This document shows, one piece after another, positions 1 through 20,288 of a DNA stretch of 23,013 nt. Position numbers and translations under genes: made by a program. This DNA comes from a virus, in IMG/VR virus record IMGVR_UViG_3300018421_000234, positions 1 to 23,013 of that record, one strand, 5' to 3'. The notes beneath the pieces were generated by a model that worked only from the letters and a program-made list of their open reading frames with translations, made no database searches and was not told the origin of the DNA. Position 1 is the stretch's first letter. Every line of letters begins with the position of its first letter.

Positions 1-1
1 C

Positions 2-400: not shown

Positions 401-446
401 AATTTGGAGATAGCAACCTCCCAAAAAGTTCTGGAAACAGATTTTT

Positions 447-451: not shown

Positions 452-456
452 AAAAA

Positions 457-657: not shown

Positions 658-659
658 TA

Positions 660-674
660 TATAAAATATAAAAC
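660..674 (+). promoter_or_regulatory. Possible weak late promoter before gp25
   Basis: The 25-base gap before gp25 is almost entirely A and T and contains two overlapping near-matches to the T4 late octamer, TATAAAAT (660-667) and TATAAAAC (667-674). Neither is exact. The position, 8 to 15 bases before the ATG at 683, is close for a promoter. A degenerate late promoter or a plain AT-rich leader are both possible. Confidence 0.25.
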
Positions 675-682
675 CAAGTAAA

Positions 683-1075
683 ATGGCAACAGTATCCAAA
701 AAATTTGTTGATCTGAACCCTAATTTTGAGAAAAATCCCCTGACTGGGGACTTACCTCTTCTTAAAAATGTAGATGCCATCAAACAATCGGTAAAGCACA
801 TCGTTTTGACTGCCCGTGGTGAACGACCATTTCGCCCATTTTTTGGTAGTACTGCAAGTTCAGCACTTTTTGACAATTTTGACATTGTTGTTAGTGACAC
901 TATCACCGTTGCTATTGAAGATGCTCTACGTGCATATGAACCTAGAGTTGAAGTATTAGAAGTTATCTTCGTTGACGACATTGATAATAACTCTCTGGAC
1001 GTAACTATCGAATATAGAATTGTTGGGATACCACTTGATCCACAGTCACTTAATCTTATCTTAGAAAGGGTATAA
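683..1075 (+). CDS. 25: Baseplate wedge subunit gp25
   Basis: The product has 130 residues, the usual size for T4 gp25 (about 132) and for the GPW/gp25 family. This protein is part of the inner baseplate wedge of contractile tails, where it joins the gp6-gp7 core and is thought to help start sheath assembly. The family signature EPR is present as YEPRVEV near residues 89-95, preceded by the typical ALRAYEPR helix. Residues around 35-55 (QSVKHIVLTARGERPFRPFFG) match the conserved N-terminal half, where an I-R-GERPF..FG-like pattern is usual. The stop codon overlaps the start of gp6 by one base (TAATG), so the two are probably translationally coupled. No strong ribosome site precedes the ATG. 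Confidence 0.95.
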   Translation: MATVSKKFVDLNPNFEKNPLTGDLPLLKNVDAIKQSVKHIVLTARGERPFRPFFGSTASSALFDNFDIVVSDTITVAIEDALRAYEPRVEVLEVIFVDDIDNNSLDVTIEYRIVGIPLDPQSLNLILERV

Positions 1076-2922: not shown

Positions 2923-2924
2923 AT

Positions 2925-5900
2925 ATGTTAAACGATTTAAAAGTATCGTCTTGTATTAGAGGTCAAATTCCTCAATACTATCCGAACGAGTATCCAAATT
3001 TAGTTAATTTTTTAAAAGATTACTATAAATTTTTAGAAGTCAATAGTAATCCTTTAGATTTAATTAATAGCACGTTAGATCTGGTAGATATTGACACGTA
3101 TAGTGGGGTAGATCTTACTGCAACATTAACTGCTCCCGTATTACAGGGACAGAGTGAGATCACTGTGCTTGACTATGTTGAATTTCCAAAAAATGATGGA
3201 TTACTTAAAATCAACGACGAAGTAATCCTGTATAAGACCAGAGAGCACGTTTTAGATGGTGAGACAAAACTCACGGTCTTTAAAGAGTGTAAGCGTGGAT
3301 TTACTTATAATGATTTAGACATTGATACTGGATTTACTGCAAATATTTCAACGATTGATGTATCCCATAGTGTTACCTCAGTTGTATACAACCAATCATA
3401 TGCTTATGTTCTTTATTTCTTAGAGAAACTCAGAGCACAGTATCTTTCTGATTTTCCTAAGAATATCTTAGCAGATAATCTCAATAATGTCAACTTTAAC
3501 CTTCTCCTCAAGAGAATTAAGGATTTCTACTTATCTAAGGGAACTCCTAGTGGCATTGACTTCTACTTTAAGTTCCTTTTCCAGAAGCAACCACAATTAC
3601 TGAATTATAATGAATATTTGATGGCACCTTCTGATGCCATCTATCAAAGTAAGAATATTGTACGTATTCAGACCTTAGATGATTATTACATTCCTGAACT
3701 TAGTGGAAACTCATTAATTCAGTTAAATACTGAATATCCAGTACAAACTACTGAAAACGTTTATACATTTGCAAGTCAAGTATATGAAGCAGAGATTGCA
3801 AATGCAGAAACTATTGTACCCACAAATTTCACTATTATTACTGCACAAATTCAAGAGAATAAACTGTATGTAGATTCTACGTATGGATTTGCAAATAGTG
3901 GATTTCTTAGAATCAATAATAGTATTGTAGAATATTCAGACAAAGAAGAGAATTATTTTGTTATTGATAATTTACCAGAATATTATGCAGTAAGTGATAA
4001 AGTGTATGAAGGTAGAACACTTGCTACTGTTAAAGATAGACCAGATTCGTATTTTGTAATTTATGCTGGCGTTTTGGGATTTGAAATTGATAAGAACTAC
4101 ACTTATTACCAAAAAGGTGATTTTGGATTTGTAAGTGATGTTATTGAAGAAACTGATCTATTGGTTTCTGGTTGGCAATTCAATGATGTATTGCCTGTAG
4201 AGTTAAGATATGATTATCTTCCAGGTATAACATCAGCATATACTGATGAAGATGCAGTTTATCTGTATACATCTGGATTGCCTTATTATGATATTGCACC
4301 CTCTACAACTCTTAACAATAAAAATGTTTTAATTGAAGATGCTAGAATTTTAAAGAAAATTCCTAGAACATTTAAAAAGACATCAGAAGGTTTTAGATTT
4401 TCTACTCAACCTAACAGTCCTGTAGGATTTCTTCGTGATGGCACTGTAATTTACAATTGGAAGAGTTCTACTACTTTTATTAGAGGTGGTGTAAAGCGTA
4501 TTGATATTGTTGATGGTGGAGATAACTATAACGTCAACAATCCACCAACTCTTTCTATCGATTCTCCATTAGATAATTCTGGGACAGGTGCTAGTGCTTC
4601 GTTAATTGTAAATGGTGGCGTTAAAGAAGTTTATGTATTAGATAGTGGACAAGGTTATCCAAGTAACACATTAGTTACTCTTGAGAAAGATCCTACTGAT
4701 AATGTTTACACTGGAGAAAACTTTAGACCAGCAACACTTCAAGCAATTGTTGTAAAAGGTAAAATTTCTAAAATTAGAGTTGTCGATCCAGGATTTGGAT
4801 ACACAAAACAACCTACTATATCAATTTCCCCATCCTACAACATCACTAGAAATCAACTGCCAGTGGGCACCACAGTGCCCTTCGATGCCGTTGTAGATCT
4901 GTTTGTAGGTGGACCTATCGGACAGGTCGTTATTGACGATCCAGGGTCATTCTACGATAGGGATCCAAACTATGAGGTATCATATGGTGTTGCTGCATCT
5001 GCCTCAATTACTATTGAAAATGGTCGTATTGTAGAAGCACAGGTAGTTAATGCTGGTAATGGTTATAATTCATCTCCTATCGTTGAAGTAGTAGATGAAT
5101 CTGGGCAAGGATTTGGTGGTAGAATTTATGCACAATGGAATGCTCAAACTAAATCTATTGATGATTATGTAGTATTGAATGCAGGTATTAATTATTCAAA
5201 TATCAATACCGTAGCAAAAATCTACGAGTCAGGTAGTGGAGCAATTTTTAATATTTCAGTAGAATCTTGGAATTTAATCAATAATTGGAATACCGCAAAT
5301 GATTTCTATTATTTTAATAATAATGGTGGATATCTTTATGGCGATAATGTTATTTCTACAGACACAGGTACTAAATTTGGCAAAAAATATTCAGTATTAG
5401 GTTTCCCCCGTGAACTTGGATTGACAAATCCACAAACAGGTAAAGTTGAAACGATTGCATTAAATACAAACACAGGACATTCTCCAATTATTGGTTTTGC
5501 TCTAGATGGAGCACCTATCTATGGTCCATTTGGATATGAAAATCCATTAGATGCTAATTCTGATGTTATTAGAATGGTATCTGGATATCAAATTAAATCA
5601 AATGCAGAAACCCCAGCAATTAGAAATGTTGGAATTTTAGGAACATATACTAAAGGTTCATTCCAAGAAGATTATAAGTGGAATATTAACGTTGCTACGT
5701 TAGATAGGCAGAATGGAAGATATTGTATAACACCAGAGTATCCCAATGGTGTATATGCTTACTTTATGACGGTTAATCGTAATAATAAGAGAATTGGATA
5801 CCCATATTTTATTGGTCCTGAGTTTGCAGGTGAAGTATATGAAGAATTTAACTTCCTTGAGGGTATTAGACCAGAAAATCTCACTAATGTTAAAAGATAC

Positions 5901-8900
5901 CTTTCTCCATACTCAAATTCTGTACCAAAACCATTAGATGTTGGTAAGTTCCAAGTATCTGGAGTTCCAATTTCAGATGATGCTAAAGTAGATAGCGTTT
6001 CTGTTATTTCTTCTGGAACTGGTTATAAAATTGGAGATACTGTAACATTTGATGATTCTGATACTGGTGGTTTTGGTGCTGCTGGATTTGTAAGTATTCT
6101 TAGAGGAAAACCCGTTACTTCAGTAACTTCTGATTTATATGATCTATTAGAATATAAAGATGAAAATATTCCATTTGGAGTTGGTGCAACAATTAAAACT
6201 GCTGATGGATTTACTGCAGACATCTATGCAATTGATCAGATCAATAAAAAAGCGTATTTGGAAAATGTTTCTGGAGATGTACCTGTTAGAGATGAAGTAA
6301 TTTACGATAATGATCTAACTACACAATTACTCACGTTTACTGAACTGACAGGTGTTGATGTTTCAACTGTGGCGATTGGTACTACCCAACAAACAGCAGC
6401 ATTAGTAAACAACATCACTCAATCTACAAAATTAATTGAGTTGAAAACTTTTGCTAACTGTACTATTAATGATTTCTTCTCAAATTACAAAAGAATCATT
6501 AAAATTAATAATGAATACATGAGAGTGTTGAAGATTGATATTACTAACAATACAGCATTAGTAGAAAGAGGGTATGAATCATTTGTTACATCTCATAGTG
6601 CTGATGATCCAATTGTATTATTAGATGAAATTGATGTATTTGATAGTTCTGAATTTTTGATCAACGATATTATTAAAATTGATAATGAAATCTTTAAAGT
6701 TGTCAATATTAGAGTAGAAAAGCAGTATGAAGTAGTTGCTACTAAAATTGATGATGGAACTGGAACTCAATTTGGCACTCAATATTACTTGTACCTTAAT
6801 GGAGTGAAGCAAGAGAATAGTAATGCTCCAATTGGAGTACCATTTGATCAAGCAGTTGTTCAATTGAACAATGATGGAGATATTGAAGATTTAATTTTTG
6901 ATACCAATATTTACACTTATGCTGCAAACCCCACTGCTGTAATTTCAACATCAGCAACATATCCAACTGAGCAACAATTACTTGCAAATCCAAATTTAAT
7001 TGTACCAAATACTGATATTAAAGCATCGACTTATAAGCATACTTTGGTTTTGGAGAGACAGGCATATGATAGTATCATTGCAGCACACTATCCAAGAACT
7101 TCTGTATATCGTTTGACTTTTGTTAATGCTAGAGTTCAATCGTACTCAACTAATCAAAGATTAGCACGTCTTTCTGTTCAAAATTCAGATATTGTTCTTA
7201 ATGAGAACATTTCAATTTCTGCTGCTACTGCACAAACAGTAAACTATACAATATCGTATGCTTATAACGGTGGAAATCCAATTTTAACTGGTATTGGAAC
7301 ATCTTTAGTTTTGTATGAAAACTCAAACTACGTTTTTGAATTAGATCCAAGTTCTGATAACATTTTTGTTAATTTCTACACACCATCCAATACCACAACA
7401 AAACAGAAAGAGTATTTTGATTTAGATATTGAAAGAGTTTATGATATTAGTGATAATTTAGAAAGATTTACACTTAGACCTAAGGATTATAATCTAACTG
7501 AACTAGTAATGAGAATTTCTGGTTCTAATGGATTCCATATTGATGTTAAATTGAATATTACTCCAGAACCCATTAACGGTGACTATATTGTAGTAAATTC
7601 CTCACCTTCATTTATTGAAGTACCAGTAGAAACCAATTTATTATTTGAATCTTTATACAATCAAACAAATATTAAGTATACCACCATATCTAAAACTGCT
7701 TCTGGTGGTATTGATGTAGTAACTTTATCTTCTGGTGGTTTTGGTTACAACACTGTTCCTAGTATTTCAGGAGTCGAATCTGTTTCTGGAACTGGAGCAA
7801 TTTTAGAATCAGTATCTAATAATATTGGTTTAATTAATAGTATTGTTGCAGTAAATTCAGGATATGGGTATAATCCAAATCCCGCACTAAAACCAACGTT
7901 AGTATTTCCTAGAATTGCAAAAATTAATAGAAACTTTATTGTAAAATCGGTAGCACTTACCAACAAAGGTGAGGGATTCCTCTTTACTCCAAATATTGTC
8001 GTTTCTGGTGGTGGACTTGGTTCTGGATCTTCAGATCATGCTGTATTAACTCCAATTATTACAAATGAAGTTTTTAGTGGAGTAAGTGTTGATTTTTCAG
8101 GAGTAGGATATAGTACTGCACCAACAATTACAGTTGAAAAATTATTCTTCTGCACAGTTAATGCTAACGGTGAAATTCTGTTTAAATTTAGTTTCAGAAG
8201 GTATATTCGAGATGATGATTCATTCATTTTAAGAGCATTCTATAATGATGCCAATGGTGATCTACAATCTGCAGATAGCACTGTCACATTCTATGCAACA
8301 CTGGGTTCTTCTACCGTTTCTGCAAAACTTTTACCAGGAAGTCAGTTAGCAGTAAATCCAAGAGATTATATTACAACACCAGAAGAACCACTTTACTATC
8401 AACTTATTTTAGCAGAGAGAACTGCTGAATTAACTGCAATTGTTGAAAAATCAACTTTCATTGCGGGTGAAAAAGTAATATTTAATGATAATCCTGCATT
8501 GTTTGGATTTGTATCCAGGCAGCAAGGATGGCAACCAAATAATTCAATTTTAAGAATTGAGAAAACTAATTATGAGGCAAAAGTCAATGATAGAGTGACT
8601 GGTGCAAGTTCTTCTTCTTTTGGTTACATTAGTGAAACATTTGGTGTAGAATGTGATGGAACACTTAATGCACTGATTGAAACACCTAAACAATTCTTGA
8701 ATTCTAAATCATTCCTTGGGATTAATGCATTAAAAATCCAAGATAGTTTTAGATATCAAAAATATGCTTATGAAATTGGTATCGATGTACCATTTAATAA
8801 TTGGAAAGATAACTATCAAAAAGCAGCACACCCAACAGGATTTAACCTGTTTGCAAAAACTGCAATTACAAATGCAATCACAGCAAAACCATCAGCAGCA

Positions 8901-11900
8901 ACTACAGTTAAAATTTCAACTGATATTTCATCTGTAGCAAGATTGAAGCAAAAAAATAATTATATTATTGCTAGAAACGCTGGATTTGATGAAGTAGAGG
9001 TTATTAATAGATTGCTAACTGACGTTAAAGAATTAAAATCTTCAGTAGTTGCTACTTTTGAAGATTTTTCAAGTCAGTTTGATGGAGTAAAGAGCACTTT
9101 TGAGTTAAAAATCTTAGATCCAATTACACAAACTTATTTGGAAAATGATCAGTATGATATTGATCAAATGGTAGTATCCCTTGATAATATTATTCAATCA
9201 TATGGAACATCTTGGACAGTTATTGACTCTAGCAAAGAGTTTAATTTTACTTCAGTTCAGCAAGCTGGAGAATTACTTCCTTCTGGTGAAATTTTAACAT
9301 ATAGACAATTCAATGAAGATGCTGTAATTTATAACTACGCAGAAACTTCAACTAGTGTAACTGATACATTTACTATCAGACAGCAAGATACTAATCTATT
9401 CCCTGGATCAGTATATGCTCCGATTGTTGCAGAAAAATGGTTAGTATTTGTAGATGGTGTTCATCAACAAGCATCTTCTTATACGTTAACTACAGATACT
9501 ATCACATTCTCTGAAGATATTTCTACAGATTCTCAAATTTCAGTTCGTTATATTAGTTCGTTGCTTGCGAACGATTTTACTTCTGGATCAGTAACTTCTG
9601 GTGTTGCAGTTGCTTTGTCTAACAAACCAAGTATTACATCTAAAGAAAGTTATTTTGTCTTTGTTGATGGTATGCTACTGTCAACTAGTGATTATGAATT
9701 AGATTCAAATAATAACGTGGTATTTAATTATGGATTTACTTATGATTCATTATCTGTATGCATTGACAGTTTGGGTGTTTCACTTGATTCTTCAACCCAT
9801 GTATTAATTGAAAACCTGTATCGTTATAAGATTGAAGATGGATCTACGGAAATCCCAGCTGGATTTAGTTTAAATCCAGAAGATTATATTGTTGATATCG
9901 CTGGTATTATTCAAACTCCATTTATTGCGTACAGTTCTGCTACTAGTGGAGTCAGACAAATATTATTCAATGAACCACCTCAAAGATATGTGGATCCAGA
10001 TAGAGTCAGTGGAAGGCAATTTATTGGATTGTTGTATCAAAGAGAAGATGCTGCAGGAGTGACATCAACACCAAACTTCCAGTTTGATGATGTTAGTAGA
10101 AACATAATTCATCTTAAAGATAATCCACAAGATTTTATAATTGGAGATTATGTAAATACGTCCACATCATCAGCAGCGATTGTTGAAAAATCGGTTTCAA
10201 CAAATAGAAAAGTTGTTGAAACTGGTTATAGTGGGTCAGTTGCATCTTCTGCAACATTTGATATTATTGTTTCTGATATCAAACGTCTCTATGTTGGTGA
10301 TAGAGTTAAATTTAATAGTGCCTTTGGTATGACCAGTATTCTTGATAATGAATTAGAGATTAGTGCAATTGACAGATTAACTAAAACCGTAACTATTACA
10401 AATATTTCACCATCTACGTTAACAATCTCTATTCAGCAAGATACTTCTATCAGATTTAATAGAATTTACCTTGTAGTAGATCAATTAGAAACAACAGTAC
10501 CAGATAGAGATGATGCTTTTGTTGCAAACGATACCTTATTGTCTGGATTTATTTCTTCACAAAAAACAGGCATTACTACAATTGCTAATGAACCATTTGG
10601 TATCCTTGATGTTGACACTGAAATTACTGTAAATAATGCTTCGGTATTTGCACAGAATGATTACGTCCTTCTCAATAATAGTGAAGTAGTTAAGATTACT
10701 AATATCGTTTCAAATACTCTTACCATAGTTCGTTCTCAGTTAAAAACTGAAGCATCTCTTTCTTATGGCAATGGAATTACTGTTGAGAAAATTATTCCAC
10801 AAGAAGTCACAGTATCTCAGTTCTTTAGAGGATTTGACGGGGATAAAACTACCTTTGTCTTAGCAGAACAGGAGCAACCAGTTTTCATTGAGGCAAACAA
10901 AGACCTATTCATTATTGTCAATGGAGTACTTCAAATTCGTGGATCTTCTTATCAATTAAATGAAGTTGGTGGTCCATCTCCATACACTGAAATAGTGTTC
11001 TTTGAACCACCACAGGCAAGAACTCCCTTTAATGCGTTCTATGTTGGTGAAACTATTGCTATTCAAGATATTTCACCTCAATTTAATGGTGTTGATACTT
11101 TATTTGATTTAAGAAGTACGACTGGAGAGATCTTTAGTTTACTTGTTCAAAACTACCCAGATATTAATGTATCTGCTAACCTACTTCTGTTTATTGATGG
11201 TGTATATCAAATTCCATCAAGTAACTTAGGTGATGGTGTTCAATCTTATCCAGATTCGGTTTCAGCATTCCAATTATTAGGTAGTTCTATTGAATTTACT
11301 TCAGCACCAAGATCTGGATCTAGTTTTGAAGGTTATATCTTTGTTGGTTCTTCTAATGACTATAAGAGTACTGATATTGATGCTACCATTGAAGATGGTG
11401 ATATTATCATTCAAAGTAATGAAATTTCACCTAGAAAGATCTTTAACATTACAAGTGCCACAAAAATGTCAGTCAATACATCATCTGGAGTAATTGATAC
11501 AACTCCAAATGCTGGTATTGAAATTGCTGCAGGTGACTATGGATGGTGGAAAACAGATGTACTTAAAGTTACTAGAATTAGAGAATCTTTACGTGCAAGA
11601 AGAACAATTCCTTCTACTATAATTGGATTTGGTGGATCTTCACCATACCCACTTTCTGGGAAAACTCTTTACACAATTTCCCTACAAACTATTGAACTTG
11701 ACGATCTTTCCTCAGATTTACCACAATCTCCAGATGACGATAGTAATTTGATTAGTTTTATTCTTCCTGCAACTGCCAACTTCCCAGAAAGAGCAATCAA
11801 CGCTACATATACAACTTATGTACCTAGATTAACATCATCTTCTGGTTCTGATGAACTTCAAGGTGTAAAAGTTGGATTTGATCTTCCATTTAATCAGATT

Positions 11901-12176
11901 CTGAAATTATCTGGAGCATCTGCAGAAACATTTGAAGATCCTTCATTTGTAGGTTGGGGTGTCAAACCATACATTCAAATTACTTATGGTGCAGGAAAAA
12001 CTGCTAGCATTGTAAATTGGGATATTACGAATCAAATTATTTACTTGTATCTCGATGATCCATTAACACCATTAACAACGGCAGATACACTTGAAGGATA
12101 TACTATTACTGATGATTCATTAGTCAATGAATATCAAACATTGCAAATTGGTGACAAGTCGATATATAATTTCTAG
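2925..12176 (+). CDS. Giant gp7-position baseplate/tail protein with YHYH-type domain
   Basis: This 3083-residue protein lies between gp6 and gp8, where T4 has gene 7 (about 1,030 residues). Residues 1-220 resemble the C-terminal part of T4 gp7: PQYYPNEYPNLVNFLKDYYKFLE near 15-37, and DFYLSKGTPSGIDFYFKFLF at 200-219. The matching end of that gp7 region appears far downstream: QDSFRYQKYAYEI at 1939-1951, and W1960 followed by HPTGF at 1969-1973. Between them lie short INDE-type beta motifs, five GGIxxIxVxxxGxGY repeats (521-723), a YHYH-type domain (782-968, with GFALDGAPIYGPFGYE and NGRYCITPEYPNGVYAYF), one more repeat near 1020-1045 and four more at 1594-1738. Residues 2052-2808 hold fibre-like VDGVxQ repeats. 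No signal peptide or catalytic motif is seen. It probably serves as the expanded wedge protein with surface decorations. Homology to gp7 is my comparison with the remembered T4 sequence. Confidence 0.85.
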   Translation: MLNDLKVSSCIRGQIPQYYPNEYPNLVNFLKDYYKFLEVNSNPLDLINSTLDLVDIDTYSGVDLTATLTAPVLQGQSEITVLDYVEFPKNDGLLKINDEVILYKTREHVLDGETKLTVFKECKRGFTYNDLDIDTGFTANISTIDVSHSVTSVVYNQSYAYVLYFLEKLRAQYLSDFPKNILADNLNNVNFNLLLKRIKDFYLSKGTPSGIDFYFKFLFQKQPQLLNYNEYLMAPSDAIYQSKNIVRIQTLDDYYIPELSGNSLIQLNTEYPVQTTENVYTFASQVYEAEIANAETIVPTNFTIITAQIQENKLYVDSTYGFANSGFLRINNSIVEYSDKEENYFVIDNLPEYYAVSDKVYEGRTLATVKDRPDSYFVIYAGVLGFEIDKNYTYYQKGDFGFVSDVIEETDLLVSGWQFNDVLPVELRYDYLPGITSAYTDEDAVYLYTSGLPYYDIAPSTTLNNKNVLIEDARILKKIPRTFKKTSEGFRFSTQPNSPVGFLRDGTVIYNWKSSTTFIRGGVKRIDIVDGGDNYNVNNPPTLSIDSPLDNSGTGASASLIVNGGVKEVYVLDSGQGYPSNTLVTLEKDPTDNVYTGENFRPATLQAIVVKGKISKIRVVDPGFGYTKQPTISISPSYNITRNQLPVGTTVPFDAVVDLFVGGPIGQVVIDDPGSFYDRDPNYEVSYGVAASASITIENGRIVEAQVVNAGNGYNSSPIVEVVDESGQGFGGRIYAQWNAQTKSIDDYVVLNAGINYSNINTVAKIYESGSGAIFNISVESWNLINNWNTANDFYYFNNNGGYLYGDNVISTDTGTKFGKKYSVLGFPRELGLTNPQTGKVETIALNTNTGHSPIIGFALDGAPIYGPFGYENPLDANSDVIRMVSGYQIKSNAETPAIRNVGILGTYTKGSFQEDYKWNINVATLDRQNGRYCITPEYPNGVYAYFMTVNRNNKRIGYPYFIGPEFAGEVYEEFNFLEGIRPENLTNVKRYLSPYSNSVPKPLDVGKFQVSGVPISDDAKVDSVSVISSGTGYKIGDTVTFDDSDTGGFGAAGFVSILRGKPVTSVTSDLYDLLEYKDENIPFGVGATIKTADGFTADIYAIDQINKKAYLENVSGDVPVRDEVIYDNDLTTQLLTFTELTGVDVSTVAIGTTQQTAALVNNITQSTKLIELKTFANCTINDFFSNYKRIIKINNEYMRVLKIDITNNTALVERGYESFVTSHSADDPIVLLDEIDVFDSSEFLINDIIKIDNEIFKVVNIRVEKQYEVVATKIDDGTGTQFGTQYYLYLNGVKQENSNAPIGVPFDQAVVQLNNDGDIEDLIFDTNIYTYAANPTAVISTSATYPTEQQLLANPNLIVPNTDIKASTYKHTLVLERQAYDSIIAAHYPRTSVYRLTFVNARVQSYSTNQRLARLSVQNSDIVLNENISISAATAQTVNYTISYAYNGGNPILTGIGTSLVLYENSNYVFELDPSSDNIFVNFYTPSNTTTKQKEYFDLDIERVYDISDNLERFTLRPKDYNLTELVMRISGSNGFHIDVKLNITPEPINGDYIVVNSSPSFIEVPVETNLLFESLYNQTNIKYTTISKTASGGIDVVTLSSGGFGYNTVPSISGVESVSGTGAILESVSNNIGLINSIVAVNSGYGYNPNPALKPTLVFPRIAKINRNFIVKSVALTNKGEGFLFTPNIVVSGGGLGSGSSDHAVLTPIITNEVFSGVSVDFSGVGYSTAPTITVEKLFFCTVNANGEILFKFSFRRYIRDDDSFILRAFYNDANGDLQSADSTVTFYATLGSSTVSAKLLPGSQLAVNPRDYITTPEEPLYYQLILAERTAELTAIVEKSTFIAGEKVIFNDNPALFGFVSRQQGWQPNNSILRIEKTNYEAKVNDRVTGASSSSFGYISETFGVECDGTLNALIETPKQFLNSKSFLGINALKIQDSFRYQKYAYEIGIDVPFNNWKDNYQKAAHPTGFNLFAKTAITNAITAKPSAATTVKISTDISSVARLKQKNNYIIARNAGFDEVEVINRLLTDVKELKSSVVATFEDFSSQFDGVKSTFELKILDPITQTYLENDQYDIDQMVVSLDNIIQSYGTSWTVIDSSKEFNFTSVQQAGELLPSGEILTYRQFNEDAVIYNYAETSTSVTDTFTIRQQDTNLFPGSVYAPIVAEKWLVFVDGVHQQASSYTLTTDTITFSEDISTDSQISVRYISSLLANDFTSGSVTSGVAVALSNKPSITSKESYFVFVDGMLLSTSDYELDSNNNVVFNYGFTYDSLSVCIDSLGVSLDSSTHVLIENLYRYKIEDGSTEIPAGFSLNPEDYIVDIAGIIQTPFIAYSSATSGVRQILFNEPPQRYVDPDRVSGRQFIGLLYQREDAAGVTSTPNFQFDDVSRNIIHLKDNPQDFIIGDYVNTSTSSAAIVEKSVSTNRKVVETGYSGSVASSATFDIIVSDIKRLYVGDRVKFNSAFGMTSILDNELEISAIDRLTKTVTITNISPSTLTISIQQDTSIRFNRIYLVVDQLETTVPDRDDAFVANDTLLSGFISSQKTGITTIANEPFGILDVDTEITVNNASVFAQNDYVLLNNSEVVKITNIVSNTLTIVRSQLKTEASLSYGNGITVEKIIPQEVTVSQFFRGFDGDKTTFVLAEQEQPVFIEANKDLFIIVNGVLQIRGSSYQLNEVGGPSPYTEIVFFEPPQARTPFNAFYVGETIAIQDISPQFNGVDTLFDLRSTTGEIFSLLVQNYPDINVSANLLLFIDGVYQIPSSNLGDGVQSYPDSVSAFQLLGSSIEFTSAPRSGSSFEGYIFVGSSNDYKSTDIDATIEDGDIIIQSNEISPRKIFNITSATKMSVNTSSGVIDTTPNAGIEIAAGDYGWWKTDVLKVTRIRESLRARRTIPSTIIGFGGSSPYPLSGKTLYTISLQTIELDDLSSDLPQSPDDDSNLISFILPATANFPERAINATYTTYVPRLTSSSGSDELQGVKVGFDLPFNQILKLSGASAETFEDPSFVGWGVKPYIQITYGAGKTASIVNWDITNQIIYLYLDDPLTPLTTADTLEGYTITDDSLVNEYQTLQIGDKSIYNF
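4485..5094 (+). repeat. GY beta-repeat block A (five copies)
   Basis: Five consecutive copies of a degenerate protein repeat of about 35-55 residues occupy residues 521-723 of the giant protein. Each copy follows Gly-x-[IV]-x-x-[IV]-x-[IV]-x-[DN]-x-G-x-G-[YF], then a Pro and a hydrophobic strand. Cores are RIDIVDGGDNY, EVYVLDSGQGY, KIRVVDPGFGY, QVVIDDPGSFY and EAQVVNAGNGY. The DNA is not repetitive, so the copies are old. The repeat probably forms a beta-solenoid or stacked beta modules. Confidence 0.75.
4865..4880 (+). other. Hairpin GGGCAC-CACA-GTGCCC inside the giant gene
   Basis: A perfect six-base-pair GC-rich stem with a four-base loop lies in a locally GC-richer patch of an otherwise AT-rich gene. 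It is intragenic with no following T-run, so it is not a terminator. It may be incidental. Confidence 0.4.
5268..5830 (+). other. YHYH-type domain within the giant protein
   Basis: Residues 782-968 resemble the YHYH domain found in some bacterial and phage surface proteins. The best markers are GFALDGAPIYGPFGYE at 857-872 and the C-terminal pair NGRYCITPEYP and NGVYAYFMTV at about 930-950, ending with YPYFIGPEF. The literal tetrapeptide YHYH that names the family is not present. The domain function is not established, and a role in surface display or ligand binding is inference. Confidence 0.7.
7704..8138 (+). repeat. GY beta-repeat block B (four copies)
   Basis: Four copies of the same Gly-Tyr beta-repeat as in block A lie at residues 1594-1738, with cores DVVTLSSGGFGY, SIVAVNSGYGY, SVALTNKGEGF and GVSVDFSGVGY, each followed by a Pro-containing strand. 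A single copy (SVSVISSGTGY) also lies near 5985-6050. The blocks flank the central region between the two gp7-like parts. Confidence 0.7.
9078..11348 (+). repeat. Fibre-like VDGVxQ repeats (about six copies)
   Basis: Residues 2052-2808 contain about six degenerate copies of a unit running FxGxxTxFxL, then an acidic segment, then [LV]F[IV]DGVxQxxSxYxL, then IxFxxxPxxG and a closing YxG. Clear cores are LVFVDGVHQQASSYTL, FVFVDGMLLSTSDYEL, FIIVNGVLQIRGSSYQL and LLFIDGVYQIPSS. Opening motifs include FDGVKSTFEL, FDGDKTTFVL and FNGVDTLFDL. This style of repeat is common in phage tail fibre and tail-tip proteins and probably forms stacked beta domains. Confidence 0.7.
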
Positions 12177-12179
12177 TCC

Positions 12180-12187
12180 TATAAATA
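12180..12187 (+). promoter_or_regulatory. T4-type late promoter TATAAATA before gp8
   Basis: An exact TATAAATA, preceded by C, lies in the 33-base gap between the giant gene and gp8, ending 22 bases before the gp8 ATG. This is the consensus of T4 late promoters, which are read by RNA polymerase carrying the phage late sigma factor gp55 and gp33. No strong ribosome site follows. An identical octamer at the same distance from its gene lies at 20276. Confidence 0.75.
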
Positions 12188-12209
12188 AAAAGAAAACCTA
12201 CTTTAAAAA

Positions 12210-13628
12210 ATGGCGGCTATTCTAACTGATAGATTTAGGGTTCTCCTTGCTAGGCAATTTAGGGAGATTATTGAGAGTGGGGAAGCAAATTCCCCCAGCA
12301 GCCCTTCGGTATGGTTGTTTTTTGCAAAGGCAAAGCAATGGGATGTAATTACTGACCCTGATGATCCTGTTGATAATCAGGATGCTGCTTTTGGAATTTA
12401 TGATCAAATCATTGGATTGAAGCGCATTCCTTCATCAGAAATGCGTCCAGTTATTAGAAACAACAAGTGGACTACTGGAATTACGTATGATATCTACCGT
12501 CATGATTATGGTAATATTAAGTCCGAAAATGGAAGTATTGTAACTTATATTCAAACCCCAACTGCTGAACAGCATTTATATGAAACTAATTACTATGTTG
12601 TAAATTCAGAGTATAGGGTTTATAAGTGCTTAAAGAATAATAATAACCAACCATCAACTATTGAACCATTTTCTACAAGTAATGCTCCATTTACTTTAGC
12701 AGATGGATACATGTGGAAATACGTGTATACGATTAATGCAAATGACTTTGAAAAATTTAAAACCGATGAATATATTCCAATTCCATCAGATCTAAGTGTT
12801 GTAGAAAATAACAAAATTATTGCGACCAATAGTGAAAGTAATCCTGGGTATGGTGGTGCAGTATATAACGTTTTAATTGATGCTGCTGGATCTGGATATC
12901 AAGTTGGACAAGAATTTGATATTATTGGTGATGGAGCAAATGGAACAGTTAGAGTTACGTCAATTTCTGAAAATGGTGGCATTACTTCGATTGCTGTGTT
13001 GAATCCTGGCGTAGGATATACCTACGGTCAAATTAACACTACCACTGGTACAAATGCAATTCTAACGCCAATCATTTCCCCCAAAGAAGGTATTGCAGTT
13101 GACATTGGATTAGAACTTGGTGCATACAGATTAGCACTTCATACAAAATTAGAAAATAGTGATTTTGTATTTGGTAATGATTTTAGTGTTGTTGGTCTTA
13201 TTTGGTCCCCATCAATTAGTGCTGCTGGAGATTCATTAGCGATTGGTACAAAGCAATTAGTTCTTAGTGGACCACTTGCATCTGCACCAGAAGTGTATCA
13301 TGATGCCCAAATTGAAGTTCAAGGTGGTGGTGGCGCTACTGGTAGAATTGTTCACTATGAAGCATCAAATCTTACAATTTACTATACTCAAGAAAATGAA
13401 GTTGGATATGGTATAGATACCTCTGGCAACAAGCAAGATTTTGTACCTGGAGATTTGTGTCAGATTGTTGATAACGGAGAATCATTTACTATCGCATCTG
13501 CTTCAGATGCAGTTAAGGACTCAGAACTCACAAGGGGTTCGGGAGAAATCATCTACATAGATAATAGGAATACAATTTCCAGAGCAGAAGATCAGACCGA
13601 AGATTTCAAAATTATTCTAGAGTTCTAA
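12210..13628 (+). CDS. 8: Baseplate wedge subunit gp8, enlarged
   Basis: The product has 472 residues against 334 in T4 gp8, a dimeric wedge protein that joins gp6, gp7 and gp10 in the baseplate. The N-terminal half fits: VWLFFAKAKQWDVITDPDDP, then GLKRIPSSEMRPVIRNNKWTTG, then DGYMWKYVYTINANDFEKFKTDEYIPIP. The C terminus is diagnostic: RGSGEIIYIDNRNTISRAEDQTEDFKIILEF at about 442-472 corresponds to the T4 end (SGEMIYMENRPP, DQTEEINILF). The extra length is a Gly-Tyr beta-repeat insert at about residues 211-281 (VLIDAAGSGY, SIAVLNPGVGY) and a second insert at about 335-430 with a Gly-rich EVQGGGGATGRIV stretch. The start follows a late promoter, and the next gene begins one base after the stop. 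Confidence 0.93.
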   Translation: MAAILTDRFRVLLARQFREIIESGEANSPSSPSVWLFFAKAKQWDVITDPDDPVDNQDAAFGIYDQIIGLKRIPSSEMRPVIRNNKWTTGITYDIYRHDYGNIKSENGSIVTYIQTPTAEQHLYETNYYVVNSEYRVYKCLKNNNNQPSTIEPFSTSNAPFTLADGYMWKYVYTINANDFEKFKTDEYIPIPSDLSVVENNKIIATNSESNPGYGGAVYNVLIDAAGSGYQVGQEFDIIGDGANGTVRVTSISENGGITSIAVLNPGVGYTYGQINTTTGTNAILTPIISPKEGIAVDIGLELGAYRLALHTKLENSDFVFGNDFSVVGLIWSPSISAAGDSLAIGTKQLVLSGPLASAPEVYHDAQIEVQGGGGATGRIVHYEASNLTIYYTQENEVGYGIDTSGNKQDFVPGDLCQIVDNGESFTIASASDAVKDSELTRGSGEIIYIDNRNTISRAEDQTEDFKIILEF

Positions 13629-13629
13629 A

Positions 13630-16600
13630 ATGCCCCAGTCAACTAATCTGAACACTCCTCCTTATTTTGAGGATTTTGATCCAAACAAGAATTTTCATAA
13701 AGTTCTCTTTAGACCAGGGTATCCCCTGCAGGCGAGAGAACTCACCACAATGCAATCTATCATGCAGAACCAGATTGAAAAATTTGGTTCTAGCATTTAT
13801 AAAGAAGGTGCCATGGTTATTCCAGGGCACATCATGTATGATCTAGAATACACCTCAGTTTTAATTGAAACTGAGTATTTTGGCATTGAATCAAATGCAC
13901 TAGTTGATTATATCGTTGGACAAGTTATTGTTGGCAATACTAGTGGAGTTAGAGCAGAAGTAGTAAAAGCACTAACTTCAGAGCAGTCGGAAAAGGGTTA
14001 TACAACTATCTACATCAAATATCTTTCAGCATCTGATGCAAATGCAGAAAGTTCATTTGCTGATGATGAAATTTTAATTACAGAAAATACATTTAGTATT
14101 GGTAACACAGTAATTCAAGAGAATACTGATTTTGCAAAATGTATTAGTTCTGGGGCAACTTATAGAGGATCTGCAGCAAAGATTACAAAAGGTGTATATT
14201 ATACAAAAGGTTTCTTTGTTGATGTTCCAGATCAAGAGATTGTTTTAGATCAGTTTGGAGTAACCCCATCATATAAGATTGGTCTTCAAATTTTAGAAGA
14301 AATTGTTACTCCAGAAGATGATCAATCCCTCAATGATCCTTCCCAGGGATACTCAAACTATGCTGCTCCTGGAGCACATAGATTTAAACTGTCTGCAATT
14401 TTAAGTAAAAAAGCATTAGATGATAATTCAGTAACTGACTTTATTGAATTATTGAGAATTGAAAATGGATTATTGAGAGATATTACTGTAGATAGCGAGA
14501 AAGCACAATTAGCAAAAACATTAGAAGAAACACTTGCCAGAAGAACTGCAGACGAATCTGGTGACTACGAAGTAAAACGTTTTTCTTATGCTAAAAATGA
14601 GTGTTTAGATAATGGTGTTAACAATGGTATCTACAAAGTAAATACTGTTACTGCATATGATAACACCGTATCTGATGATATTTTTGAAATTTCTGTAGGT
14701 CCAGGTAAGGCATATGTAAGTGGATTTGAAGTAGAGAAGAGAGGTAATAATTATGTTGATATTTTTAAACCAAGAACATCAGAAGCAAGAAATAATTTCT
14801 TCATTAGAACTGATGCTAGAGGTGTAGAATTTAGAGTTGATAATACCTCAGGTACTCAGCACGTTTCATATTCATTTGTTAATAACTCAATTAACAATCC
14901 AGTACCATTGCTGGATACTAATTCATTAGTAGTTGGATATGGTCTTTTAAGATCATACGAAGAAGTAGGAACTGATATTGTTCTTCGTATTAATAATATC
15001 AAATTTGTTCAAGACGAATTTACTATCGAAGGTAATGTAGATAAAGTACGTCTTGGTGGAACAATTGATTATAGAAATAATACTTCATCTGGAGGTTCAG
15101 TAAGAACTATTAGTAGTATTGAAGGATCTCCAATTCCACACCTTTTCCCTGCATTCTCACCTCAAGTGGTGATGAAGTCAGTTAGTGATGAGATTGTACA
15201 GAGATCTACTGGTAAGATTACTGGTCAAACAACAGCAAATTCAAATGTAATTTCAGTTGCTAGACAATTTACCAGCACAAATGGTAGTGATTATACTATT
15301 AGAATTGCAGATGATGCAGATTCAACTACAAGAACAATTTCTAATGTAACTATCGCTGGTGGAGTTGCTACGTTCACTTTCAGTGGAACTGCCCCAACTT
15401 CTGCAAAGAATTATTTAATCATAGGACCTGAAACTATTTCAGAACCTAAAATTAAGTTAATCTCTCATGAAAAAATGAGAGTTTTAAAATTATCTGATAT
15501 TACCAATAAGTATAAAGTAAATAATTACAAGTTAAATTTAGGTGTTACTAGAGTATCTAAGGTTCATGCTGTATACAATGCAGCAACTGGTAATTTTACA
15601 GATATCGTACCAAAAGTAACTCTTACAAATGCAGCAACTGTACTACAACCAAATGAAATTTTTGTAGGAAAGAGTAGTGGTGCAAAAGGTAGAGTAATTT
15701 CACAATCTGGAACTGCCGTTTATTTTGTATACGAAACTTCTATTAATTTTGTAGCAAACGAGGAAATTTATGGATATGCTGCAGGATCAACAGGATCTAT
15801 TGCAACTGTAGAAAATAACGGCGCTCCAAACATCAAAAAGAGGTATACTCTTGATGATGGACAAAGAGATCAAGTATTTGAGTATTCTTACTTAGTAAAA
15901 GCATCAAGAGAGAGTGTTATCTCTGGTGATATTTACGTTGTGTTTGATTACTTCAAAGATCAAAATGATGATGGAATCTTTTCCAGTATCAATTCATACT
16001 ATGACTCTGAACTAAAAGATATTCCAGTTTATAGAAGAAATGGTAGCAATTATTACCTTTCTGAATTTATTGACTGGAGAATTAATAAGCAAGAACTGTT
16101 TAATTCGAGTACATCAGGTCAAGTAGGAAATCCTTTTATTTTAGATGATGCAAAAATTAGAAGTTTTGCAGGTGAGATTCTTGGTCTTACTATTACTGAC
16201 AACACCACTGATCAACCAGACAATACTTATGTTGGAGTCGCTATTACTGGTGGAAGCGGTACTGGTGCAACCGCAGATGTAGTCGTTTCTGGTGGTGTAG
16301 TAACTTCAGTATCAAATATTACTGGCGGATTAAATTTCCAAGAAGGACAAACTGTAGGATTATCTGGTCATGCAGGAACTATTCTTACAGTAACCAGAAT
16401 TACATATAATAACGAACTGAGTGCATATTCAGGTACGGTTAGTAACGAGTATACTGCATCCAGTGATTATCTGTTCCCAACAGAATCTACAATTGCAGAT
16501 GTTGAGTACTATTTACCTAGAATTGATAAAGTTTATATTTCATCTTCTGGTACATTTGTAGTTAAGCAAGGCACTCCAGCTCCTCAACCAACTGCACCAG

Positions 16601-19600
16601 AAGATAGCATTGTAAATGCTATGCCTTTCTTACAGATCTCTATGCCAGCATATGTTAGAGATCTGAATGATATTACAATCTCTCGTTTTGAAAACAAGAG
16701 ATATACGATGAAAGATATTGGAAAACTTGAAGCAAGATTAAATAACATTGAATATTATACTGCTTTAAGTTTGTTAGAAAATGATACTGCTAACCAGTTC
16801 ATAGATGATGGCACTGGCAGCAATAGATTAAAAAATGGTTTTATGGTTGATAACTTTAAAACCCATGATTCTGGAGACGTTTTCCATCCAAACTATAAGT
16901 GTTCTATTGATACTGGAGAAGGAAACTTAAGACCACAGCATTACACTAAAAATGTTTCATTGAAAAGAAAAGATGTAAACAATAGATTTGTAAAAGGATC
17001 TTATGTAATGCTTGATTATGATCACAAGGTATTTGTAGATCAACCATTTGCTGCGGTAATTGAGAACGTTAATCCATTCCAAGTTATTTCTTGGGAAGGT
17101 GTTCTTGATATCTTCCCAGCATCTGACGATTGGTTTGATGAGGAAAGAGTACCAGAAGCAGTTACTGAGGTAGAAGGTGACTACTTAGCAACTATTGAAG
17201 CAGAAGGTGCGGATCCTAATACTGGTATTGCTCCCACAGAATGGGGTGCTTGGGAAACTCAATGGTCAGGAACTCACTGGGGTCATTGGCATGGTCGCTG
17301 GTGGTGGGGTCACTGGTGGCATTGGGGTTGGTGGGGATGGAACTGGTGGTGGTGGGGCGGTTGGCCATGGAGAACAACCGTTACACACCAAACCAGAACT
17401 GGTGTTGCCACTACAGTTAATGCTCGTTATGATAGAGAAGTACAAGAAGATAAGACGATTGAGACCAAGAGCATTCGTTGGTTAAGATCTAGAAATATCA
17501 CTATTCGTGCAAGTGGAGTAAAACCAAATATTAGAATGTATCCATTCTTCGGGGATCGTGAAGTAGAGACACTTTGCACACCAAAGATTGTTCGTATCAC
17601 AATGGAAAGTGGATCGGTAGCATTCCAAGTTGGCGAACTCGTTACAACTATGAGAAGTTTGGAGAGACAGTCAGTAGGTGATATTAGAGATACCAAATTC
17701 CTTGCAACGTTGTTAGCACCAGATTCTGCAACTTTAGCATCTAGTGGAGCAAATTACGCCTTCGCTCAAACTGGAACTTCATACACAGTTACTAGTGATT
17801 ATTTAAATTTAGATCTTGAGTCAATGCAACAATTGAATGGATCTGAATTTGGTGGTTACTTAATTGATGGAGATGTGATCGTTGGTCTTCAAAGTGGAGC
17901 GCAGGCAACTGTATCGTCTACAGCATTGATCACTGATCAACAGGGACAATGTAGATATAGTTTCTATATTCCAAATCCAAATACTGATGCTAACCCAAGA
18001 TGGCCAACTGGTGAGCAAACAATGCTGTTTACTGGTGACCCAGAAAACACTAAGATTCCTGGAATTACTGACAGTAGTGCAGAAGGTATTTACTCTGCTA
18101 TTGGTACTATCAATGTTAAGCAGTTACAAGTTAACTTAGTTAGAAACGCTGATGTTGTTAGAGATCAAGTAACTGATACCAGAACATTAACTAGAACATG
18201 GAGAGATCCTCTTGCTCAATCATTCCTTGTTAATGAACCAGATGGAGTATTCATTACAAAACTGGACCTTTATTTCCAAACTAAAGATAAGAGATTACCT
18301 ATTACACTTCAAATTCGTAATATGGTAAATGGTGTTCCTGGATTAGAGTCATATGGAAGCATTGATGTAAATCCAGATCAAATTAATATCTCAGATGATG
18401 CGTCAGTTCCAACTACATTTGAATTTGAAAACCCAATTTATCTCAAAGATGAAGATGAGTACTGCTTTGTTCTGTTGACATCATCTCTTGAATATAGAGT
18501 TTGGTTGTCCGAAATGGGTCAAAATGACCTGTCAGGAAACAAGATCACAAAACAACCTTATTTGGGTGTTCTGTTTAAATCTCAAAACGGCACTACTTGG
18601 ACAACTTCGGATCTTCAGGACTTTAAGTTTACTCTGTATAGGGCATCATTTAAGACAAATGAAAACGCTGTAGTTACTTTTGTAAATGATAATTCAGGAA
18701 ACTTACAGTATAATAAACTTAGAAGAGACCCAATTGAATTAAATGTCAATAATGGAAGAATCAAAGTACACCATGTAAATCATGGTCATCATGATAATTC
18801 TTCGTATGTAACTATCAAAGGTGTTTCATCTGAGAAATATCTTAAACTTGCTGATAATTGGTCTGGAACTCCAGGTACAACTCTCACTGTAAGTGGAGAT
18901 AGAGATCCATTTGCTAATATTTCATTGATTAATGGAAACGCACCATCATCAACAAATAAATCATTTATCAGAATTGGTGATTGTGTTTATACCTATCAAG
19001 TTGCCAATGTAAGTACCCTTACAAATGGAACGTTTACTATCTTAACTGATGAGTTGGTATCTGGAACTATCCCATCTGATGGTTATAAAAATACTCAAGC
19101 TAATTGGGAAGTTGAACTGTATCTGATTGATGGTGTTCCATTGACTTTAATTAATAAAACTCACACTGAATTAGAGTGGATTACCTTTGATAGTTATCAG
19201 ATCAATTTAAGTAATATTGTAAGAACTTCTGGAGAAAACCAAACTGTAGGTGGTGATAACGTTTTTGCAAGTCAAAATATTATTTACAGTCAGGTAAAAC
19301 CAACGATTACCATTAGTGAACTCCCAGAAACAAGTATTACTGCAGAACTTAGAGGTGCATCTGGAACTTCATTAGATACTTCTAGATTCTCAGATCCAGC
19401 ATCTACTGAAACTCCTGGACAAGCATCCTATGTTGTTGATAGTGAATTTAGAGGAATTACGTTAAATCAAAATAACGAATTTAATGATCCAAAAATTATT
19501 GCATCTGCAGTCAATGAAGATAAGCAAATGTTCGGCACTCCTTCATGTGAGATTAGATTAACTCTTACAAGTGCAAGAGATAATCTTTCCCCAGTTGTTA

Positions 19601-20067
19601 ACCTTGAAAGATTGAGTTTGACTACTACTGTAAATAGAGTAGCAAACTTTGACGGTGCTGTGGAAAATGAATATTTCCTTGCAGATGATGGTCAGTATAC
19701 AGATTTAGGAAGTAGTTCAATTCAGGACTTCAACCCAGCAAACTATATTACTAAACTGATTACTCTTGAAAACGTTAGTACTTCTCTAAAAGTACAATTT
19801 GCTGCACAAAGAAGACCAGAAACTGATTTTGATGTATACGTCAAATTCCTTACTGGAGATGAAGATGAAGAAAATATTGCTTGGACTGAATTAAATACAG
19901 CAACTTATGATAATACAAAAACAAACAATGGTGAATTTATTGACTATAGTTACTTCGCTCCTAACGGTGTTTCATTTAATAAATACCGTGTGAAGATCCG
20001 TATGAGATCTAGCAACCAAGCAATTGTTCCAATTATTAAAGATTTAAGATGCATAGCACTGGCTTAA
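13630..20067 (+). CDS. DUF4815-type giant tail/baseplate protein with Trp-rich segment
   Basis: This 2145-residue protein occupies the place of T4 genes 9 and 10. Its N terminus matches the DUF4815 style of phage structural proteins (FHKVLFRPGYPLQARELTTMQ and NQIEKFGSSIYKEGAMVIPG, residues 22-62). Further conserved blocks are TLDDGQRDQVFEYSYLV (about 741-757), KRYTMKDIGKLEARLNNIEYYT (1023-1044), SIRWLRSRNITIRASGVKPN (about 1281-1300), TWRDPLAQSF (1523-1532) with a following beta domain, and a His-rich loop at 1714-1721. Residues 1205-1247 hold 20 tryptophans in 43 positions. A Gly-Tyr-type repeat lies at about 868-917. No signal peptide or enzyme motif is visible. It is probably a large peripheral baseplate or fibre-attachment component. 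The exact function is unknown, and I see no reliable match to gp9 or gp10. Confidence 0.85.
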   Translation: MPQSTNLNTPPYFEDFDPNKNFHKVLFRPGYPLQARELTTMQSIMQNQIEKFGSSIYKEGAMVIPGHIMYDLEYTSVLIETEYFGIESNALVDYIVGQVIVGNTSGVRAEVVKALTSEQSEKGYTTIYIKYLSASDANAESSFADDEILITENTFSIGNTVIQENTDFAKCISSGATYRGSAAKITKGVYYTKGFFVDVPDQEIVLDQFGVTPSYKIGLQILEEIVTPEDDQSLNDPSQGYSNYAAPGAHRFKLSAILSKKALDDNSVTDFIELLRIENGLLRDITVDSEKAQLAKTLEETLARRTADESGDYEVKRFSYAKNECLDNGVNNGIYKVNTVTAYDNTVSDDIFEISVGPGKAYVSGFEVEKRGNNYVDIFKPRTSEARNNFFIRTDARGVEFRVDNTSGTQHVSYSFVNNSINNPVPLLDTNSLVVGYGLLRSYEEVGTDIVLRINNIKFVQDEFTIEGNVDKVRLGGTIDYRNNTSSGGSVRTISSIEGSPIPHLFPAFSPQVVMKSVSDEIVQRSTGKITGQTTANSNVISVARQFTSTNGSDYTIRIADDADSTTRTISNVTIAGGVATFTFSGTAPTSAKNYLIIGPETISEPKIKLISHEKMRVLKLSDITNKYKVNNYKLNLGVTRVSKVHAVYNAATGNFTDIVPKVTLTNAATVLQPNEIFVGKSSGAKGRVISQSGTAVYFVYETSINFVANEEIYGYAAGSTGSIATVENNGAPNIKKRYTLDDGQRDQVFEYSYLVKASRESVISGDIYVVFDYFKDQNDDGIFSSINSYYDSELKDIPVYRRNGSNYYLSEFIDWRINKQELFNSSTSGQVGNPFILDDAKIRSFAGEILGLTITDNTTDQPDNTYVGVAITGGSGTGATADVVVSGGVVTSVSNITGGLNFQEGQTVGLSGHAGTILTVTRITYNNELSAYSGTVSNEYTASSDYLFPTESTIADVEYYLPRIDKVYISSSGTFVVKQGTPAPQPTAPEDSIVNAMPFLQISMPAYVRDLNDITISRFENKRYTMKDIGKLEARLNNIEYYTALSLLENDTANQFIDDGTGSNRLKNGFMVDNFKTHDSGDVFHPNYKCSIDTGEGNLRPQHYTKNVSLKRKDVNNRFVKGSYVMLDYDHKVFVDQPFAAVIENVNPFQVISWEGVLDIFPASDDWFDEERVPEAVTEVEGDYLATIEAEGADPNTGIAPTEWGAWETQWSGTHWGHWHGRWWWGHWWHWGWWGWNWWWWGGWPWRTTVTHQTRTGVATTVNARYDREVQEDKTIETKSIRWLRSRNITIRASGVKPNIRMYPFFGDREVETLCTPKIVRITMESGSVAFQVGELVTTMRSLERQSVGDIRDTKFLATLLAPDSATLASSGANYAFAQTGTSYTVTSDYLNLDLESMQQLNGSEFGGYLIDGDVIVGLQSGAQATVSSTALITDQQGQCRYSFYIPNPNTDANPRWPTGEQTMLFTGDPENTKIPGITDSSAEGIYSAIGTINVKQLQVNLVRNADVVRDQVTDTRTLTRTWRDPLAQSFLVNEPDGVFITKLDLYFQTKDKRLPITLQIRNMVNGVPGLESYGSIDVNPDQINISDDASVPTTFEFENPIYLKDEDEYCFVLLTSSLEYRVWLSEMGQNDLSGNKITKQPYLGVLFKSQNGTTWTTSDLQDFKFTLYRASFKTNENAVVTFVNDNSGNLQYNKLRRDPIELNVNNGRIKVHHVNHGHHDNSSYVTIKGVSSEKYLKLADNWSGTPGTTLTVSGDRDPFANISLINGNAPSSTNKSFIRIGDCVYTYQVANVSTLTNGTFTILTDELVSGTIPSDGYKNTQANWEVELYLIDGVPLTLINKTHTELEWITFDSYQINLSNIVRTSGENQTVGGDNVFASQNIIYSQVKPTITISELPETSITAELRGASGTSLDTSRFSDPASTETPGQASYVVDSEFRGITLNQNNEFNDPKIIASAVNEDKQMFGTPSCEIRLTLTSARDNLSPVVNLERLSLTTTVNRVANFDGAVENEYFLADDGQYTDLGSSSIQDFNPANYITKLITLENVSTSLKVQFAAQRRPETDFDVYVKFLTGDEDEENIAWTELNTATYDNTKTNNGEFIDYSYFAPNGVSFNKYRVKIRMRSSNQAIVPIIKDLRCIALA
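17242..17370 (+). other. Trp/His/Gly-rich low-complexity segment
   Basis: Residues 1205-1247 of the DUF4815-type protein contain 20 Trp, 9 Gly and 5 His in 43 positions, including WWW at 1224-1226 and WWWW at 1239-1242. Because Trp has the single codon TGG, the DNA here is G-rich, with four GGGG runs at 17306, 17324, 17333 and 17354. The frame is correct on both sides: conserved blocks continue before and after it. Confidence 0.95.
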
Positions 20068-20288
20068 TTCCTGTTGAGGGTCACGGCGATCTGGGTCGTG
20101 ACCCATATTCAAACGCTATTGTAAATACAAACAAAAGTGAATTTGAGCAATACGTTGCAGAAAGGAATAAAAGATTAGAACAAAAGAATAAAATTGAAAA
20201 TACTGCTGAGGAACTCAAGGAAGTAAAACAAGAGATTGCAGAAATCAAGGATTTACTACTTAAATTAGCTAGTAGTATAAATACTTGA
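20049..20288 (+). CDS. Small coiled-coil virion-associated protein
   Basis: The product has 79 residues and overlaps the end of the DUF4815-type gene by 19 bases in another frame, so it is probably translated by coupling or re-initiation. The N-terminal part has the pattern GDLGRDPYSNAIVNTNKSEF, then YVAERNKR. This resembles small cyanophage structural proteins as I remember them, which carry RD..S.AIVNT followed by a YxxYxxxR stretch. From about residue 43 to 75 the protein is a charged heptad helix (IENTAEELKEVKQEIAEIKDLLLKL), a likely coiled coil. A connector, chaperone or fibre-attachment role is inference. A strong hairpin (20078-20104) lies in its first codons, and a late promoter octamer overlaps its stop. 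Confidence 0.8.
   Translation: MHSTGLIPVEGHGDLGRDPYSNAIVNTNKSEFEQYVAERNKRLEQKNKIENTAEELKEVKQEIAEIKDLLLKLASSINT
20078..20104 (+). other. Strong RNA hairpin after the DUF4815-type gene
   Basis: GGGTCACGGC (20078-20087) and GTCGTGACCC (20095-20104) form a ten-base-pair stem with one G-U pair and a seven-base loop. It begins ten bases after the stop codon of the 2145-residue gene and lies inside the early codons of the next gene. There is no T-run after it, so it is not a typical intrinsic terminator. An RNA-processing, stability or translation-coupling role is possible. Confidence 0.65.
20276..20283 (+). promoter_or_regulatory. T4-type late promoter TATAAATA before the fibre cassette
   Basis: An exact TATAAATA overlaps the last codons of the coiled-coil gene and ends 23 bases before the ATG at 20307. 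The octamer and spacing match the site before gp8, which supports both as real late promoters. It would start a transcript for the three fibre-type genes downstream. Confidence 0.72.

Follow-up and report, generated by a model that had tools for sequence, protein, structure and literature searches.

A tryptophan-rich variant of a predicted hairpin-tip loop in the DUF4815/VrlC baseplate protein of a T4-like phage

Proteins of the VrlC/DUF4815 family are among the few structural proteins common to cyano- and pelagimyophages. A first-pass annotation of one of their genes, in IMG/VR record IMGVR_UViG_3300018421_000234 (positions 1 to 23,013; "the window" below is this whole stretch of 23,013 bases), marked 20 tryptophans within 43 residues. 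Tryptophan is a metabolically costly amino acid, and a loop that is 41% Trp would be an extreme of biased composition retained in a working virion protein. Here, we ask whether the tract is genuinely translated, where in the protein it lies, and what it might do.

Gene cluster and protein family

The window, from an uncultured virus, carries a T4-like baseplate gene cluster in which gp25, gp6, a gp7-like YHYH protein, and gp8, all baseplate wedge genes, precede the DUF4815 gene. The YHYH domain has been linked to putative receptor-binding proteins (PMC7029224).

683 to 12176, + strand: gp25, gp6, and a 3083-aa YHYH-containing wedge gene (Pfam and PHROG matches; synteny), comprising the next three entries
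683 to 1075, + strand: gp25
1075 to 2922, + strand: gp6
2925 to 12176, + strand: gp7-like wedge protein of 3,083 aa, with an internal YHYH domain at aa 846 to 953
12210 to 13628, + strand: gp8 baseplate wedge gene (Pfam Phage-Gp8, phrog_438), directly upstream of the DUF4815 gene
13630 to 20067, + strand: DUF4815/VrlC baseplate protein gene, 2145 aa, A511 gp106/phi812 ORF65 family (Pfam, phrog_358, PDB 9euf, fold match)
18217 to 18651, + strand, limits approximate: most of a jelly-roll lectin-like domain, aa ~1530 to 1674 (VIA-align)

By profile, sequence, and fold, the 2,145-aa gene product is a member of the DUF4815/VrlC family. DUF4815 was the sole domain found in the Pfam search (185 bits against a curated cut-off of 30; E 2.4e-54), and phrog_358 matched aa 938 to 1705 with 1650 bits. 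The phi812 protein ORF65 (PDB 9euf) was matched in four stretches by phmmer (E 7.8e-50), by Foldseek from the protein model (E 1.1e-17), and by VIA-align (Z 24.4 to 25.6, 28 to 29% identity), where an rmsd of 17 to 18 Å over the entire model means that the match covers the domains and not their relative placement. The jelly-roll domain also aligned with phi812 ORF65 and, at Z 12.8 and 3.5 Å over 153 residues, with the lectin-like domain of Cwp84 (4ci7); it lies elsewhere in the protein, and the Trp tract itself is without known fold.

Family members (A511 gp106, phi812 ORF65/TmpG, cyanophage VrlC; phrog_358) share the profile, sequence, and fold family of the window protein and the same place after gp25-gp6-gp7-like-gp8, and the cyanophage branch also has its Trp motif and hairpin loop. 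Members from Gram-positive phages differ in that the corresponding segment is much shorter, as is the hairpin counterpart in phi812. At its 3' end, the DUF4815 gene is overlapped by 19 bases by a phrog_473 gene for a virion structural protein (20049 to 20288).

Composition of the tract

Translation reproduced the annotated composition exactly: residues 1205 to 1247 (17242 to 17370, + strand) read WGAWETQWSGTHWGHWHGRWWWGHWWHWGWWGWNWWWWGGWPW, with 20 W, 9 G, and 5 H, including WWW and WWWW runs. The remainder of the 2,145-aa protein holds 12 W, and elsewhere in the window W makes up 0.45% of codons. A binomial estimate for 20 W in 43 residues is ~1e-35, which treats residues as independent and so measures oddness, not a true probability. 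Part of the excess is ordinary for the family: in the motif WxxWxTxW, alignment columns W86 and W89 are invariant and W93 is at least 90% conserved across 100 homologues. As W1205, W1208, and W1212 are this motif, the unusual part comes down to 17 W in 32 residues.

17242 to 17265, + strand: family motif WGAWETQW (W1205, W1208, W1212), conserved, 3 of the 20 Trp
17275 to 17370, + strand: Trp-rich tract proper, 17 W in 32 aa, HWGHWHGRWWWGHWWHWGWWGWNWWWWGGWPW (translation, codon test, loop survey)
17287 to 17346, + strand: imperfect 30-nt direct repeat inside the tract, two copies, 70% identical (repeat search)

Leu, Ile, Val, Met, Phe, Asp, Glu, and Lys are all absent from the tract, which sets it apart from a packed core and from a typical membrane anchor. 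The direct repeat is a possible trace of growth by duplication; the tandem-repeat listing of the window has no array at the tract. Runs with at least 13 Trp codons were also seen in L171 and L276, in ORFs of 157 and 169 aa, and are probably TGG microsatellites or shadow frames.

Reading frame

The tract could in principle be an artefact in which a Gly-rich loop, read in the +1 frame as GVIGMVAGGGVTGGIGVGGDGTGGGGAVGHG, was turned into a Trp-rich one by a pair of indels, through sequencing error or recent mutation. Gly-rich loops do occur at the same site in relatives L042, L046, and L072, and in the listed TGG-rich viral contigs other readings with at least 14 W in 43 aa lie in ORFs of at most 169 aa, as expected of shadow frames. 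Moreover, the tract is known from a single sequence. Contig L049 (IMGVR_UViG_3300023176_006967, 1 to 8238) matches window positions 6630 to 14867 with 99.94% identity over 8,238 bp and is thus a second assembly of the same virus population; it stops at 14,867, 2.4 kb upstream of the tract, and no second contig was found across the tract. A search with the sequence downstream of the tract found no relative.

Against such a frameshift, the ORF is open and conserved on both sides of the tract.

17059 to 17163, + strand: conserved block preceding the tract, ENVNPFQVISWEGVLDIFPASDDWFDEERVPEAV (homologues from cyanophages, methylophages, and Listeria and Staphylococcus phages align here)

The first-pass annotation had argued for the frame from DUF4815 blocks on both sides. 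Its in-frame claim is supported by conserved flanks and codon choice, with one refinement: the Pfam DUF4815 match stops at residue 1174, ahead of the tract, and conservation on the downstream side is instead seen in phrog_358 (938 to 1705) and in the homologue alignment. Synonymous codon choice, which is independent of amino-acid composition, was compared in the three frames and gave z scores of -1.76 for the Trp frame, -4.7 for +1 (p 7e-5), and -10.5 for +2. Among 442 control windows from the same genes, 8% of true frames were as low as -1.76 and 0.45% as low as -4.7, and +1 shadow frames had a mean z of -4.45. By normal approximations from these control windows, the Trp frame, inside the normal range, is favoured several hundred to one, and the +1 codons are far off (5 GGG among 16 Gly codons, compared with 5% GGG elsewhere). 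The 9.2-kb frame and the rest of the 6.4-kb frame are intact, which argues against an indel-prone contig. A compensating frameshift pair around 17242 to 17370, named at the outset as what would overturn the tract, is thus unlikely on codon choice, and we regard the artefact as a whole as very improbable. The likeness of the +1 reading to the Gly-rich loops of L042 and L046 was set aside, as TGG-rich frames always give Gly in +1 and the codon test is against it.

A hypervariable hairpin tip

The tract occupies the variable tip loop of a predicted beta-hairpin.

17254 to 17283, + strand: predicted beta-strand 1 of the hairpin, aa 1209 to 1218 (AF2 model, E90-99)
17284 to 17367, + strand: hypervariable hairpin-tip loop, aa 1219 to 1246 (AF2 model; pLDDT <50 over aa 1225 to 1243)
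17368 to 17394, + strand: predicted beta-strand 2 of the hairpin, aa 1247 to 1255 (AF2 model, E128-136)
17389 to 17403, + strand: conserved QTRTG block closing the hairpin (R1256 invariant, G1258 at least 90%; columns R137 and G139; 100 homologues)

When aa 1120 to 1345 were folded by AF2 with 100 homologues, both strands were well predicted, and from their order and spacing we infer that they pair as a hairpin. The same stretch likewise had very low confidence in a 761-aa model; such low pLDDT may reflect lack of information rather than disorder. Folded alone, the hairpin region gave no significant fold match, and weak matches to pore-forming toxin folds (E >1) were not taken as evidence.

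The first-pass annotation had proposed a comparison of homologues for length and Trp content. This comparison shows the segment to be a hypervariable hairpin tip family-wide: across 553 homologue pairs, the flanks are 70% and 67% identical and the loop 42%, with unequal loop length in 81%. The tip varies in sequence and length on a conserved stem (WETQWSGT... and ...TTVTHQTRTG); ordinary tips among the relatives are Thr/Gly/Arg/Ser-rich, whereas that of the window is Trp/Gly/His-rich. No other sampled family member listed equals its Trp density. We are therefore highly confident that the tract is a genuine in-frame variant of the hypervariable beta-hairpin tip loop of a DUF4815/VrlC baseplate protein.

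Searches with the tract found nothing among PDB sequences and no relative in the bacterial genomes searched. With the whole protein, phmmer returned the uncharacterised PDB 4f54_A (E 6e-6), in which a Thr/Ser/Tyr-rich segment likewise comes after a short W/Y/G-rich stretch; it was rejected as a relative, the match being driven by biased composition (Pfam gives DUF4815 only and the tract alone matches nothing). Another compositional extreme is the strongly Gly-rich tip between WxxWxTxW and the R.G block in L042, L046, L072, and L150 (e.g., SGGGGGAGRGGGFNIIGGEGGGNNWW).

Recurrence of aromatic tips

New here are Tyr/Trp/Gly-rich loops at the site of the tract in a separate clade. Among the matches listed, ~15 distinct phage sequences of this other clade carry such loops (NYGYYGNWWWGWPYGYGYGYWGH...) at exactly the same position. 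We called a tip aromatic/Gly-rich if the loop from WxxWxTxW to the R.G block had at least 9 aromatics per 30 aa. Motif patterns were used to excise loops from the matches listed, so some homologues were skipped and the survey is a sample of the collection. Trp+Tyr+Phe per 30 aa was bimodal in the 201 non-redundant listed loops, 185 having 0 to 7 and 16, including the window, 9 to 20. The window loop, with 16 per 30 aa, thus joins 15 other distinct members among the listed loops.

The uncultured L350 clade (L350, L398, L403-L421, L426, L439, and L466) has its aromatic loops at the same position of the same protein. Like that of the window, these tips consist of aromatics and glycine with some His and hardly any aliphatics; they differ in that Tyr dominates (15 Y and 7 W in L398) and in their separate origin on the tree. 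The L350 loop, NYGYYGNWWWGWPYGYGYGYWGHYGYYGWRRGY, and the L398 loop, NYGYYGYYGGWWWGWPYGYYGYYGYWGYYGYWGWHRGY, are in frame within long ORFs, and their codon usage in this frame is normal.

A tree built from the flanks alone places the window (100/100) beside L079 and L002-L004, all of which have ordinary tips, although its branch is long and its exact place less sure than the support values imply. These four are also closest to it in path length and in identity (L079, 56%). All other aromatic loops cluster far from the window (99/94), in a group where L419 is the one reversal. Across the well-supported branches the aromatic label must change three times, for which two gains plus one loss is the simplest account. 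The placement of the window with ordinary-loop relatives and the three forced changes point to separate origins of aromatic tips; on this tree, the class appears to be one of likeness and not lineage.

Between L350 and L403-L406, 100 flank residues are identical. The substitutions that separate their tips are three Tyr-to-Trp, each needing two base changes, a Tyr-to-His, and an Arg-to-His. Over all aromatic-clade pairs, which are not independent of one another, no exchange is more frequent than Trp/Tyr. Two-base Tyr-to-Trp changes beside identical flanks suggest that aromatic character is selected, so that the trait under selection appears to be aromatic side chains with glycine between them, Tyr and Trp being equivalent. 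Unit swapping between near-repeats could be an alternative route to the interchange. In L419, a member of the aromatic-tip clade, the aromatic tip has been lost; its short loop, TTTVWEGNRTTTSV, offers a natural deletion to compare against.

Possible function

We consider it about an even chance that the window tip is an exposed, sticky aromatic/Gly contact surface on a baseplate pyramid of the A511 gp106/phi812 ORF65 type, touching the host surface. In cyano- and pelagimyophages, VrlC is regarded as belonging to a baseplate with two layers (PMC7029224). In A511, trimers of gp106 build pyramids that turn to face the cell wall once the phage has first attached, and lectin-like/CBM folds occur in gp106 homologues (PMC9863714, PMC11406892); together with the 4ci7 match of the window protein (Z 12.8), these folds give context for host contact. 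Pyramid behaviour is carried over here by analogy from Gram-positive phages at low sequence identity.

The tip became Trp/Gly/His-rich in the window phage and Tyr/Trp/Gly-rich in the separate clade, and it would be an exposed surface on the pyramid. After first attachment, the pyramid would swing cellward, as in A511 gp106, and each baseplate would push several aromatic tips against the host envelope. Binding might involve stacking on sugars (LPS, capsule, or wall glycan) or contact at the membrane interface, and it could increase avidity or help to keep the baseplate locked once contracted. We infer that a host-surface glycan or the envelope is the most likely partner. The aromatic binding patch put forward by the first-pass annotation is plausible as such an exposed surface, but its other suggestion, an oligomer-packing core, is less likely for a hypervariable, very low-confidence loop without Leu, Ile, Val, Met, or Phe.

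A contact within the virion is a different possibility. The tip could dock in a pocket within its own trimer or in a different baseplate protein (the gp7-like protein, gp8, or the tail-fibre base) as an assembly clamp or conformational latch; baseplates rely on such contacts, and the conserved family Trp motif lies partly within the hairpin stem. We judge this unlikely, as a docking element with a conserved partner should not vary in length in 81% of pairs or drop to 42% identity, the closest relatives have Ser/Thr/Arg tips, and the tract lacks the aliphatic residues of a packed core. Neutral drift would instead require that the tip tolerates almost anything and that replication slippage of TGG/GGT-like units raised Trp without benefit. 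The imperfect 30-nt duplication, the variable sequence and length of the loop, and the frequency of TGG-rich DNA among the listed viral contigs agree with drift, yet the tract codons are no clean microsatellite or tandem array, Trp is costly, and aromatic tips occur in two lineages, are kept across ~15 distinct sequences, and exchange Tyr and Trp by two-base changes; drift is accordingly improbable in our view. As a similar Tyr/Trp/Gly tip evolved separately at the same spot, the window tip is probably a real sticky contact surface.

More tentatively, T4-like aquatic phages might have evolved aromatic-glycine hairpin tips at least twice as an adhesive device on their baseplate pyramids, one that recurs under selection and, as a simple contact surface likened to an antibody loop, provides the baseplate with a glycan- or envelope-binding site apart from the tail fibres. 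A hypervariable tip with separate aromatic versions singles out a 28-residue element as a candidate baseplate receptor-binding site, and it shows where these phages change while the remaining protein stays put.

The literature search on Trp-rich phage tail segments found nothing relevant. The T2-type gp38 adhesins (S16, PP01) are similar in having hypervariable loops and Gly-rich sequence at a distal host-contact tip; their hypervariable loops, with Gly-rich neighbours, contact the host and include W and Y at the loop ends (PMC12892980). In contrast to the baseplate beta-hairpin of the window, gp38 sits on long tail fibres and is built as a polyglycine-II sandwich, and it gave no match to the window protein in the Pfam, PHROGs, or PDB sequence searches; it is compared here as an analogue and not as a relative. 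At the left end of the window (2 to 397), a partial phrog_29004 protein terminates in HFWWEQPNNHWQ, a small Trp/His cluster.
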